DNA of 64,000 nt, taken from contig JAJVHV010000001.1 in NCBI GenBank assembly GCA_022072445.1, positions 62,001 through 126,000 of the forward strand. Reading direction: 5' to 3'. This document shows, one piece after another, positions 55,262-59,281 of the stretch. The notes under the pieces were generated by a model, which was given only the letters and a program-made list of their open reading frames with translations, ran no database searches and was not told the DNA's origin. Made by a program: the position numbers and the translations under genes. The first letter of the stretch is position 1, and each line of letters begins with the position of its first letter. The stretch is from Phycisphaerae bacterium (lineage in GTDB: Bacteria; Planctomycetota; Phycisphaerae; UBA1845; Fen-1342).

Positions 55262-58200
55262 TCACGCGCCGATCTCGCCCAGATGCTCCCGGATGGCCGC
55301 CAGCTTCGCACAAAGCTCCGCCGCCCGCTGCCGCTCCTTCTCGACCACGGCCGCGGGGGCCTTGTCCACGAACGTCGCATCGGCCAGCTTCGCTTCCACG
55401 CGCTGAATCGCCGCCGAGACTTCGCCCAGGTCCTTCTCGAGCCGGCGGCGCTCGATCTCGGGGTCGGCCAGGCCCGCCAGCGGCACGTACACCTCCATCC
55501 CCGACAGCACCTTGCTCGCCGCCGGCCGCGGTTTGGCCACCTCCGGCCCGATCTCGATCTGCTCGCACGTTCCCAGCCGCCGGATCATCGCGCCGTTCCG
55601 CCGCAGAATTTCCGCCCGCTCCCCCGCGGCGCGGATGGCCGCGTGCGGCAGATTGCGGATCGACGGCTGTTTGTCGGCGGCGCGCATCGTGTTCACCTGC
55701 GTGCGGATGTCGCGCAACGCGCGGATCACCGGCTGAAGCACCTCGCTCACCTCGCGCTCGCACGCCTCGTCGATCAGCTCGGGGCGAACGCGCGGCCAGG
55801 CTGTGACGATCAGCGGCGCATCGGCGCTGCGGTCACCCACGCCAGAGCCGCGCGTGGTGCCAGAGCCGTGACCGTCATTCGCGCCCGAGCCGCGCTCCGG
55901 CCGATCCGAGCCGCGACCGTAAGGGAGCGGGTTCTTAGCTCCGCCCGCACGGCGCTCGATCTCCGCGCGATCGGAACTCAGCCTTTCCGCACTCGGCGCC
56001 TCCGCGCTGCGCACGGAAACCGCTCCCTCACGGTCGCGGCTCTGGCAGCGCTCGATCCATTCGGCATGCCCCGGCACGGCCTCGCCGACCTTTTGCCACA
56101 GCGCCTCAGTAATGAACGGCATGAACGGGTGCATCAGGCACAGCGTGCTGTCGAGAACGTGCAACAGCACGGTTTTCACGTCGTTGGCCTGCGCCGCACC
56201 ATTCCCTTCGTGGCTTCGTGGCTTCGTGGCTTCGTCGCTCCCTCCGTCGCTCCGTCGCTTCGTCGCGCCGTCGTCGCCTTCGCGCCTCCGTGCCTCCGTG
56301 CCTGCGTGCCCCGCAGTTAACCGCACCTTGGCCTCTTCGATGTACCAATCGCAGAAATCGCCCCAGAAGAACGCGTAGATCGCGTCGGCGGCCCGCTGAA
56401 ATTGATATTGATCGAGCGCGTCGGTCACCGAGCGGATGCAGCGCTGCAAGCGCGACAGGATCCAACGGTCGAACAGATCCCTCGGCCCTTTGGTCCCTCG
56501 GCTCCTGGGCCCCTCAACCCCTTGGCCCCTCGGCCCCTCGGCCCCGTCGTCCCTCCGTCGCTCTCCAATCTCCACGTCGCGCACATTCGGCAGCACAAAC
56601 CCCGTCGCCGCCTGCCACAGCTTGTTGCAGAAGTTGCGGCCCAGCTCGAACTTGTCGCTGCCGTTCACCGTGCGGCCGTCGGGCAGCTTCACCGGCTTGA
56701 CCGGCATGCGGATGTCCTGCGTCTCGGTCGCCATCTGCGCCAGCACGAAGCGCAGCGCGTCGGTGCCGTACAGCTCGATCAGGTCGAGCGGGTCGACGCC
56801 GTTGCCCAGGCTCTTGGACATCGTCCGCCCCTGGCCGTCCTGGATAATCGGGTGGATGTAGACGTGGCGGAACGGCCGCTGCCCGGTCAGGTACTTCGAG
56901 CACATCACCATCCGCGCCACCCAGAGCGTGATAATGCCGCGTGCGGTGGTCAACACGTCGGTGGGGAAGAAGTAGTCGAAGTCGGCGGGGGTAGGCCGGA
57001 TTGAACCGGCATCGTCAGCGTCGCCAGAGTCAGCGCCGCTCGGGTTTCTGCCAGAGCCGTTTCTGCCAGAGCCGCGACCGTCAGGGAGCGCGGGAGGCGC
57101 GTTGTCTCCGGCCCGCGCACGTGATGGATCCGAGCCGCGACCGTGAGGGAGCGGGTTCCTAGCGCCACCCGCGCCGCGCTCAATCTCCGCGCGATTCGAA
57201 CTCGGCCTTTCAGCACTCGGCGCCTCCGCGCTGGGCATGGAAACCGCTCCCTCACGGTCGCGGCTCGGATCCGTCGGGTCGCGGCTCGGACTGTGCGGCG
57301 CCTCCGCGCTGGGCCCGGAAACCGCTCCCTCACGGTCGCGGCTCGGATCCGTCGGGTCGCGGCTCAGATCATGCGGCCAGCCAAACGTGCTCAGCGGCCA
57401 GAGCGACGAGCTGAACCACGTGTCGAGCACGTCGGGGTCCTGCACGAAGCCGACGGCTTCGAGACGCCGCGCAAGCGGACTATTCGGAGTGCGAATACAG
57501 ATTAGCGTTTCGACATCGAACACGTCCCCGACGTGCTCGCTAAGTTCCAGCGAAGTTCGGGATGACTCTTGATCGCGACTCACGACGACCTCGGCGCGAT
57601 GGTCGCGCTCCAGTTCGCGGAGCAGCGCCTCGGCTGCTTGCGACTCACTTTCCCAGCCCCCCCATTCGCGACGCCACACCGGGATCCGATGCCCCCACCA
57701 GAGCTGCCGGCTGATGCACCAGTCGCGCTTCTCGCCCAGCCAGTCCAGATACGTCGACGCGTAACGCGCCGGAAAAAACTGCACCTCGCCGCCGCGCACC
57801 GCCTCGATCGCGAGCTGCGCCAGCCCCGGCGCGCCGCGCAGCCCCTCCACCCGTGCCGCGTGCTCCGGCTCCAGATCGCCCGTCTTCACGAACCACTGCT
57901 CGCTGCGGAGCGGCTCGATCGGCGTCTTGCTGCGGTCGGAGTGGCCCACGTCGGTCACGTAGTCTTCGACTTTCTCCAGCAACCCGAGCGCCTCCAAGTC
58001 GGCCACCACCTGCTTGCGCGCGTCCTCCTTCTTCATCCCCGCGTAATCGCGCCCTACTCCCCGTTCCTTGTCTCCTGCGCCGTGCGCCACGCCAGTCGCA
58101 TCCTCGTGCGCCCCGCGCCCCGCGCCCTGCGCCCTGCCGTTCTCGTTGATCTTCCCGTCCGGCGTCAGCAGGTCGATGATGGCAAACTCATCGGCGTGTC

Positions 58201-59161
58201 CCTGATGCCGCTGCCAGCAGGCGTAGTCGTTCGGATCGTGCCCCGGCGTGATCTTCACGCAGCCCGTTCCGAATTCCTTGTTCACCAGCAGCCCGTCGGC
58301 GACGATCGGGATCGGACGGTTCATCAGCGGCAGAATGCAGCGCTTGCCGATCAGGTGCTTGTAGCGCTCATCGTCCGGATGCACCGCCACCGCCGTGTCC
58401 GCCAGCATCGTCTCCGGCCGCGTGGTGGCTACGACGAGGTAGTCAACACCCGCGCGCCCTTCGTCGCTTCGTCGCTCCGTCGCTCCGTCGCTCCGTGGCT
58501 CCGTGGCTCCGTCGCTCTGTTCAATCGGATACCGAATATGCCACAAGTGCCCCTTGACCGTCTCATGCACGATCTCGTCGTCGGCCACCGCCGTCTGCAG
58601 CGCCGCGTCCCAGTTCACCATCCGCAGCCCGCGGTAGATCAGCCCGTCGCGAAACATGCGGAAGAACAGCTCGTACACCGCTCGCGCGCACACCTCGTCC
58701 AGCGTGAAACGCGACCGCTCCCAGTCGCACGAGAAGCCCATCTTGCGGAGCTGCGCGATGATCCGCGCGTTGTACTCCTCCTTCCACTCCCATATCTTCC
58801 GCACCAACCCCTCGCGGCCCAGCTCATGCCGCGTCAGCTTCTGCTCCTGCTTCAGCCGCTTCTCGACCACCGCCTGCGTCGCGATCCCGGCGTGATCGGT
58901 CCCCGGCATCCACTCCGCGTCGTAGCCCTGCATCCGTCGCGCCCGAATCAGAATGTCCTGGCAGGTGTTGTTCAGCGCGTGACCCAGGTGCAGCGCGCCG
59001 GTGACGTTCGGCGGAGGAATGACGATCGTAAACGGCTGGCGGGCCGTATCGGGCTCGGCGTGAAAATAGCCGCCGCGCTCCCACAGCGCGTAGATGCCCG
59101 GCTCGATTGCTCGGGGGTCATACGTGCCGCCGCCGGCGGGCGGCGCGGCGTTGCTGCTCAT
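55262..59161 (-). CDS. valS: Valyl-tRNA synthetase with six in-frame repeat-derived insertions
   Basis: A class I synthetase charging tRNA-Val. The HIGH motif appears as ALHLGHALNNT (about residue 55), the KMSKS motif as RTMSKSLGNG (about 778), and the C-terminal tRNA-binding coiled coil as RRRLEKDLGEVSAAIQRVEA. At 1299 residues it exceeds the usual 880-950. The excess lies in six blocks that split conserved sequence: about residues 215-236, 341-370, 596-722, 865-895, 947-989 and 1038-1111. All are rich in Arg, Gly, Ser, Asp and Glu and derive from octamer or heptamer arrays and palindromic elements. The frame is open throughout. GGAG lies eight bases before the ATG at 59161. It is the only valS in view. 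Confidence 0.95.
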   Translation of the reverse strand: MSSNAAPPAGGGTYDPRAIEPGIYALWERGGYFHAEPDTARQPFTIVIPPPNVTGALHLGHALNNTCQDILIRARRMQGYDAEWMPGTDHAGIATQAVVEKRLKQEQKLTRHELGREGLVRKIWEWKEEYNARIIAQLRKMGFSCDWERSRFTLDEVCARAVYELFFRMFRDGLIYRGLRMVNWDAALQTAVADDEIVHETVKGHLWHIRYPIEQSDGATEPRSDGATERRSDEGRAGVDYLVVATTRPETMLADTAVAVHPDDERYKHLIGKRCILPLMNRPIPIVADGLLVNKEFGTGCVKITPGHDPNDYACWQRHQGHADEFAIIDLLTPDGKINENGRAQGAGRGAHEDATGVAHGAGDKERGVGRDYAGMKKEDARKQVVADLEALGLLEKVEDYVTDVGHSDRSKTPIEPLRSEQWFVKTGDLEPEHAARVEGLRGAPGLAQLAIEAVRGGEVQFFPARYASTYLDWLGEKRDWCISRQLWWGHRIPVWRREWGGWESESQAAEALLRELERDHRAEVVVSRDQESSRTSLELSEHVGDVFDVETLICIRTPNSPLARRLEAVGFVQDPDVLDTWFSSSLWPLSTFGWPHDLSRDPTDPSRDREGAVSGPSAEAPHSPSRDPTDPSRDREGAVSMPSAEAPSAERPSSNRAEIERGAGGARNPLPHGRGSDPSRARAGDNAPPALPDGRGSGRNGSGRNPSGADSGDADDAGSIRPTPADFDYFFPTDVLTTARGIITLWVARMVMCSKYLTGQRPFRHVYIHPIIQDGQGRTMSKSLGNGVDPLDLIELYGTDALRFVLAQMATETQDIRMPVKPVKLPDGRTVNGSDKFELGRNFCNKLWQAATGFVLPNVRDVEIGERRRDDGAEGPRGQGVEGPRSRGTKGPRDLFDRWILSRLQRCIRSVTDALDQYQFQRAADAIYAFFWGDFCDWYIEEAKVRLTAGHAGTEARRREGDDGATKRRSDGGSDEATKPRSHEGNGAAQANDVKTVLLHVLDSTLCLMHPFMPFITEALWQKVGEAVPGHAEWIERCQSRDREGAVSVRSAEAPSAERLSSDRAEIERRAGGAKNPLPYGRGSDRPERGSGANDGHGSGTTRGSGVGDRSADAPLIVTAWPRVRPELIDEACEREVSEVLQPVIRALRDIRTQVNTMRAADKQPSIRNLPHAAIRAAGERAEILRRNGAMIRRLGTCEQIEIGPEVAKPRPAASKVLSGMEVYVPLAGLADPEIERRRLEKDLGEVSAAIQRVEAKLADATFVDKAPAAVVEKERQRAAELCAKLAAIREHLGEIGA
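55829..56048. repeat. valS insertion with 135-bp palindromic element, copy 2
   Basis: The 135-bp element spans 55908-56042: a 28-base arm (55908-55935), 79 bases of centre, and the inverted arm (56015-56042), three mismatches between arms. The insertion is extended at 55829-55907 by degenerate CAGAGCCG-type repeats. In the coding frame the arms read SRDREGAVS and NPLPYGRGSD. Confidence 0.85.
56195..56325. repeat. Period-8 array in valS
   Basis: CTTCGTGG is repeated three times and then drifts (CTTCGTCG, CTCCCTCC, GTCGCTCC, GTCGCTTC, GTCGCGCC, TCCGTGCC) while keeping its eight-base step. It encodes GTEARRREG ... DEATKPRSHEG. The same octamer is found in the kinase gene. Confidence 0.8.
56470..56570. 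repeat. Second period-8 array in valS
   Basis: About ten octamers built on CCCCTCGG (for example CCCTTTGG, TCCCTCGG, CCCCTTGG, CCCCTCGG twice, CCCCGTCG, TCCCTCCG). The encoded stretch DDGAEGPRGQGVEGPRSRG separates VRDVEIGER from DLFDRWILSRL, a core boundary of the synthetase. Confidence 0.8.
57000..57378. repeat. valS insertion with 135-bp palindromic element, copy 1, and 78-bp tandem duplication
   Basis: The complete element spans 57132-57266 (arms 57132-57159 and 57239-57266, 27 of 28 bases paired; 79-base centre). The right-arm segment is then duplicated at 57317-57344 as part of a 78-base (26-codon) tandem unit beginning at 57239 and 57317. A degenerate third arm lies at 57070-57091. The whole block encodes about 125 extra residues between the segments STFGWPHDL and DYFFPTDVLTT. 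Confidence 0.88.
58055..58142. repeat. Period-7 array in valS
   Basis: Read on the minus strand, the segment runs in seven-base steps: GGCAGGG, CGCAGGG, CGCGGGG, CGCGGGG, then degenerating through GGAGACA and AGGAACG. It encodes about 30 residues with GAGRGAHEDATGVAHGAG inside the editing region. Confidence 0.7.
58456..58520. repeat. Third period-8 array in valS
   Basis: Octamers TCGTCGCT (twice), CCGTCGCT (twice), CCGTGGCT (twice), CCGTCGCT. The encoded SDGATEPRSDGATERRSDEG interrupts the synthetase between RYPIEQ and VDYLVVATTRPET. Confidence 0.8.
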
Positions 59162-59281
59162 GCGATCCACTCCCGCTGCTGGACTGCGACTGCCTGGGCG
59201 ATCCAAAGCGGATGAGTGTATCCGATCGGGCCGGCACCCGCGAACCGCAGGTGTCCCCCTGACCGCCCGTGCGGCAGGTCA

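Follow-up and report, generated by a model that had tools for sequence, protein, structure and literature searches.

The 135-bp palindrome that lies in frame within the valyl-tRNA synthetase (ValRS) gene of the window (the whole 64,000-nucleotide stretch of Phycisphaerae DNA analysed here) is very probably a REPIN, an inverted pair of REP sequences, belonging to a class 3 TnpA-Y1 system whose transposase (TnpA) is itself embedded in host enzymes, and it would have been moved by the mechanism that we propose below. The hairpin unit, its spread through the genome, its residence in frame within genes, the frames that stay open from end to end, the intact catalytic motifs and the repeated use of the same protein loops are all read directly from the sequences described here.

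An in-frame REPIN in valS and its hairpin core

The host gene, valS, occupies 55262-59206 on the minus strand (1314 codons), matches the Pfam domains tRNA-synt_1, Anticodon_1 and Val_tRNA-synt_C, and retains intact HLGH and MSKS motifs. It is the sole ValRS locus of the genome, the other weak matches being other class I synthetases, and as such the interrupted gene is presumably functional. The element lies at 57132-57266 on the minus strand, at what we term ValRS site A, between residues 472 and 475 of Thermus ValRS (1gax); its minus-strand frame is open across the entire 135 bp (45 codons) as part of the valS reading frame, and encodes the peptide SRDREGAVS...NPLPHGRGSD. The earlier note had described arms of which 27 of 28 bases pair, and its coordinates, length and open frame proved correct: the arms are 28 nt with one mismatch around a 79-nt centre, and a longer inverted repeat (57123-57159 and 57239-57275) has 37-nt arms that are 95% complementary and stand 79 nt apart. 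The element strand is predicted to fold at -64.6 kcal/mol, against -34.5 kcal/mol for shuffled sequences (z -9.9), and none of 200 shuffles folded as well.

The element is made up of an inverted pair of hairpin repeats of 23-28 bp each. The REP core of the left arm (57132-57154, plus strand) comprises a foot, CCGA, which overlaps the outer end, a stem, CCGC-GA-CC / GG-GA-GCGG, and a loop, GTGA, and the core of the right arm (57244-57266, minus strand) is its inverted counterpart. Further REP sequence is found close by and elsewhere in the gene. A 78-bp (26-codon) tandem duplicate of 57218-57295, a 92% direct repeat, occupies 57296-57373 on the minus strand and contains a third arm (57322-57344, core match at C2:119322-119344), while a fourth arm with one mismatch lies at 57069-57091 (plus strand) in the left-arm orientation, where the minus strand reads ALPDGRGS. 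A second REPIN of 135 bp, or 45 codons, is present near the C-terminal part of valS (55908-56042, minus strand) and is 90% identical to the first over its whole length; the third full-length match, of 132 bp and 72% identity, is in cysS (C2:301290-301421 of the same genome, G000). The valS frame also holds runs of a degenerate 8-bp repeat that is unrelated to REP (56203-56281, 56526-56560 and 58448-58522), the minus strand of which reads like SDGATERRSDG or ATKPRSHEG.

The earlier note had called for copies elsewhere in the genome, and these are abundant: the 23-bp core GAGCCGCGACCGTNAGGGAGCGG is found 376 times at two mismatches or fewer, and the reversed control pattern not once. An alignment of 121 copies shows CCGAG-hairpin-TTTC as the conserved block, in which the hairpin has the stem given above and the loop GTNA. 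In some 120 copies the foot CCGA is conserved at 97% (C), 88% (C), 100% (G) and 100% (A), with the G and the A lying inside the search pattern. At stem pair 5/20, 88 copies have G-C, 76 have C-G and 4 have some other combination, the search pattern having permitted either form at each side in any combination; pair 9/16 is C-G in 144 copies and G-C in 21, and more paired stem changes are seen in other genomes. These compensatory changes argue that the hairpin itself is constrained, whether by selection or by the transposase. In the REPIN layout the two REPs are inverted with respect to one another, with their feet pointing outward.

In the search of other planctomycetes suggested by the earlier note, 392 genomes from the phylum were covered and 34 contained the core, and the arm peptides that the note associated with planctomycete proteins, SRDREGAV and PLPHGRGSD, do recur in proteins of the window genome and of its relatives. 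The exact 23-mer core is also present in contigs of Acidobacteria, Legionella and Anaerolineae/Ardenticatenia, and its occurrence in the latter two suggests either transfer or a very wide spread. We do not claim a link between transposase embedding and REP copy number (376 copies in G000, 171 in G291, 117 in G368 and 68 in G198), as G081 has a free TnpA and yet 360 copies, and the pattern searched for was fitted to the REP variant of the window genome.

Copies within and between genes

Across the 1.64 Mb of the genome surveyed, core copies were grouped into 53 clusters and their flanks were assessed with a relaxed coding test, a strict one being too conservative. For 10 of the 53 clusters the two flanks were coding on one strand and in one frame, and same-strand frame shifts numbered zero; of 1137 same-strand cases at randomly chosen positions, 104 were shifted, and the flank-frame test alone is therefore not strong. 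In-frame copies reside at two sites in valS, as two units in alaS, and in cysS, acs, rtcB, a DNA methylase gene and prophage terminase and portal genes; the remaining clusters lie mostly in low-coding DNA, long arrays among them.

The inverted pairs within genes measure 132, 135, 135, 201, 621 and 690 bp, each a multiple of three. By their coordinates, inverted pairs in other genomes include spans of 58, 68, 77 and 79 bp, and the existence of such pairs outside genes indicates that the element as such imposes no multiple of three; on these sequences that regularity is best explained by selection within genes. The constraint on length and frame anticipated in the earlier note thus holds for the intragenic copies, which are in frame, but not for those outside genes, and a length of exactly 45 codons is not a property of the element, given that the arm-to-arm spans of related extragenic pairs are often not multiples of three. 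An array on contig C32, likewise outside genes, consists mostly of 135-bp pairs as well, these being repeats of one unit.

Long tandem REP/REPIN arrays are a feature of the window genome (C32:19123-21201, C17:21894-24108 and C2:26257-27081, and on C12, C24, C27 and C7), with periods of about 69-230 bp, and several are at contig ends. A reading of these regularly spaced copies as CRISPR-like arrays was rejected, as what they repeat are the REPs and REPINs seen elsewhere, with an unchanged hairpin.

Transposases embedded in synthetases and methylases

A search of the genome for Y1 transposases returned two full-length, class-3-like TnpAs, both of which lie in frame within alaS. Each has REPs in inverted orientation at its two ends, and these belong to a subfamily (CCGC/GCGG or CCCC/GGGG) particular to that copy. 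The alaS frame extends to 1686 codons, with Pfam domains of alanyl-tRNA synthetase (AlaRS) on either side of two Y1_Tnp domains, and alaS is single copy. The two other TnpA matches in the genome are partial and more distant, so that in this assembly (about 97% complete) the transposases matching these REPs are apparently encoded only inside AlaRS. Judged by sequence, a TnpA of the class 3 family most likely moves these REP elements; a search of PDB sequences with TnpA gave no match at E 0.01.

Surveys of the phylum and of the class showed that the best-matching TnpAs frequently occupy very long frames, and the long-frame cases were then read individually. This yielded 27 embedded units, distributed over 26 genomes. 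They lie in AlaRS (8 at site I, 3 at site II and 1 at site III), ValRS (1 at site A and 10 at site B) and two DNA methylases, namely a DUF1156 antiphage-associated methylase (3) and BREX-2 PglX (1); the methylases were identified by NCBIfam, with the DUF1156 match below the model cut-off. Methylase hosts include G291 (BREX-2 PglX), in which near-identical direct repeats flank the transposase, and G445 and G455 (DUF1156). In G406, of the same family as the window genome, a complete unit sits at ValRS site A, precisely where the window has its REPIN, and in other relatives this loop is short or moderately lengthened (46-82 residues from one fixed motif to the next). Each of the 11 ValRS hosts tested has a single ValRS gene. 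Most of the surveyed genomes are metagenome-assembled (MAGs), and embedded units are present in two near-complete genomes that each consist of one contig, G368 (3.84 Mb) and G291 (7.74 Mb); a public example, from the same class as the window genome, is the 1343-codon valS frame of Phycisphaerales bacterium OFTM204 (JAJDCZ010000052.1). No near-identical empty site was found among the relatives, and hence a target site or target duplication could not be read.

The HUH and Y----Q motifs are kept in every one of the 27 embedded class 3 TnpAs, which share 44-71% pairwise identity where compared, and divergence is greatest at codon position 3, at 1.3 to 3 times that of positions 1 and 2; this apparent purifying signal may stem from free-living phases. 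Embedded and free copies differ markedly at their ends. An ATG lies within 20 codons upstream in 2 of 27 embedded copies versus 30 of 44 free ones (p 3e-7), and any of ATG, GTG or TTG in 7 of 27 versus 38 of 44. The arm-to-arm span is a multiple of three in 23 of 27 embedded versus 4 of 23 free copies (p 2e-6), and a stop codon precedes the right REP in 0 of 27 versus 24 of 26. Embedded copies were defined by a long open frame, which by itself entails the lack of a stop and accounts partly for the spans; the start-codon difference is independent of that definition. For three of the four span exceptions the left arm reads EPRPSGS, in a frame that requires the loop base to be C if a stop is to be avoided, and it is C in all three; three ValRS units (G658, G729 and G539) have the left arm read in another frame. 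The free TnpAs of G751, G695 and G752 carry REP-derived peptides in their own N-terminal regions, and by this sign are possibly units that left the embedded state.

On the most likely tree of 67 TnpAs there are at least six switches between embedded and free states and at least eight switches of host site, with weak deep branches; the well-supported branches alone require at least three changes for ValRS site B. The TnpAs of G000a (AlaRS) and G406 (ValRS) are sisters (99/92), which places related units in different genes. G372 and G720 share 91% identity in ValRS versus only 50% in the TnpA at the same site, and the units at AlaRS site I do not track their hosts (Mantel p 0.79); from this mismatch, the same loops have most likely been re-invaded or their units exchanged, for which REP-REP recombination in a resident loop would be a simple route. 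An AU test on a smaller set of TnpAs did not reject one embedded clade (p 0.23), and as such a single vertical origin is neither shown nor rejected by these trees, with the turnover speaking against it for some cases.

Other transposases reside in frame in the same fashion. In purH of the window genome, one of another Y1 type lies at C22:21550-21786, just before the CFIKHTN motif, and the same loop holds a different transposase in G398, G404 and G409, all of the same family, that of G409 being without the first HUH histidine. The ileS gene (1647 codons) contains a Y1 transposase-like domain (C27:57782-58030) between GSIGVPPV and HRRDADAP arrays, which are apparently another repeat family.

Proposed mechanism, rival explanations and known systems

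The full-size form consists of a REP, tnpA and an inverted REP over some 540-700 bp; in many genomes of the class it has neither an ordinary start nor a stop codon and thereby forms one open frame from end to end, its arms reading SRDR(E/K/Q)GA and PLP(H/D/Y)GRGS with the transposase between them. TnpA would move hairpin-ended DNA in single-stranded form, as is thought for its IS200 and REP relatives, and insertions that fall in frame into flexible surface loops would persist. In such loops the arms would act as hydrophilic linkers, and translation of the host gene would yield an enzyme that contains the transposase as an internal domain. Where the host gene is essential, as for AlaRS and ValRS, there would be selection against frame-breaking loss of the unit; the embedded TnpA could then go on supplying, in trans, REPs and REPINs by the hundred, and the REPs resident in a loop may offer landing pads at which other units take the place of the existing one. 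The activity of TnpA, its production as an internal domain, its mobility, the single-strand mechanism, the mobilisation in trans and the landing-pad exchange are what we infer from the features described above. A broader reading, to which we give an even chance, is that this is a transposon lineage adapted to life inside proteins, in which the open ends act as linkers and the transposase is normally only ever an internal domain of essential enzymes. The same reading, held at the same even balance, would include secured expression and persistence, REPs driven in trans and the repeated re-invasion of loops.

The units could conversely be passive passengers, in frame only because other insertions are lethal, with the embedded TnpA a dead relic. 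Selection alone does predict the in-frame bias, and the purH-embedded TnpA of G409, of another type, reads DRVH, the first HUH histidine being lost. We nevertheless consider this rather unlikely for the class 3 copies, all 27 of which retain HxH and Y----Q at the pairwise identities and with the excess of third-position change given above, and the window genome maintains hundreds of REPs without any other full-length class 3 TnpA. The strong recurrence in AlaRS and ValRS, together with units of G658, G729 and G745 (one family) that are seemingly co-inherited with ValRS, might instead point to domestication, with TnpA now a useful synthetase domain, for instance in nucleic-acid binding or sensing, that is kept for the benefit of the host. 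That the units occupy several distinct sites in these two enzymes and DNA methylases besides, that their turnover is high (the G372/G720 pair; AlaRS site I) and that most relatives do without the unit makes such a role distinctly improbable.

Large insertions in essential enzymes also resemble inteins, and could in principle be spliced from the protein or the transcript. This is a highly improbable account, as Pfam shows no Hint or other splicing domain in ValRS, AlaRS, IleRS or PurH, the 45-codon REPIN is likewise devoid of one, and ValRS site A is a length-variable loop rather than a conserved motif. Assembly artefact or chimeric binning might be suspected where most genomes are MAGs and repeat arrays stand at several contig ends, but is scarcely credible and already largely contradicted by the units of single-contig G368 and G291 and of the public contig JAJDCZ010000052.1, and by the many independent genomes that have different sequences at one site.

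A REPIN system with its transposase embedded in host enzymes, the explanation we prefer, bears on the question of how REP sequences propagate and how their transposases are maintained. In many genomes, transposases of a REP system are locked into indispensable genes, in the same ValRS and AlaRS loops, so that mobilisation in trans, persistence and tolerance of insertion become directly testable. These units represent a mobile element whose DNA ends would serve also as protein linkers, and offer a possible mechanism for in-frame elements like the Rickettsia palindromic elements (RPEs).

Among known systems, the agreement is closest with class 3 TnpA-Y1/REP, which, in the portion of Quentin et al. 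(2018; PMC6006769) available to us, is characterised by Y----Q, a CnGA foot and high REP numbers, mainly in Planctomycetes, Acidobacteria and Proteobacteria. The present system shares the HUH and Y----Q transposase, the CnGA foot (here CCGA), REPs that flank tnpA and number in the hundreds, and the same phyla; unlike here, that portion describes neither host enzymes that carry the unit in frame nor units that have lost their start and stop codons. It is likewise akin to the REPIN-RAYT system (Bertels and Rainey 2011; PMC3116915), being an inverted REP doublet that forms one long hairpin (z -9.9), recurs across the genome as a whole (as in the two 135-bp copies with 90% identity) and has a cognate tyrosine transposase, but canonical REPINs are extragenic, of another REP type and served by a separate RAYT gene, whereas in the present system certain copies are read through as part of a coding frame and the transposase lies inside other genes. 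The GTAG/CGTC REPs of Di Nocera et al. (2013; PMC3733652) occur inside open reading frames, including those of tRNA synthetases, and often as dimers; their foot differs from CCGA, which excludes that identity, and the part of that work available to us has only short intragenic REPs and no whole transposase units. Small HUH-Y1 transposases, hairpin ends and presumably single-strand movement are shared with IS200/IS605, from which the present units differ in that a single REP, in inverted copies, supplies both end hairpins and that REPs also spread alone, to hundreds of copies. An intein identity was discarded, there being no Hint domain among the Pfam matches. In the open-access literature we found no report of synthetase-embedded transposase units or of these arm peptides, subscription papers being outside its scope. 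As to the RPEs (reviewed in PMC10969869), to which the earlier note had likened the palindrome, the behaviour is indeed alike: RPEs are palindromes of about 100-150 bp in frame in housekeeping genes, and the present element tolerates insertion in valS, cysS, acs, a DNA methylase gene, a prophage portal gene and others. The assignment to that family is not supported, however, as RPEs are by description elements of Rickettsia of about 150 bp with a conserved peptide, whereas the REP-type ends, the foot and the candidate transposase mobiliser seen here place this element with class 3 TnpA-Y1/REP.
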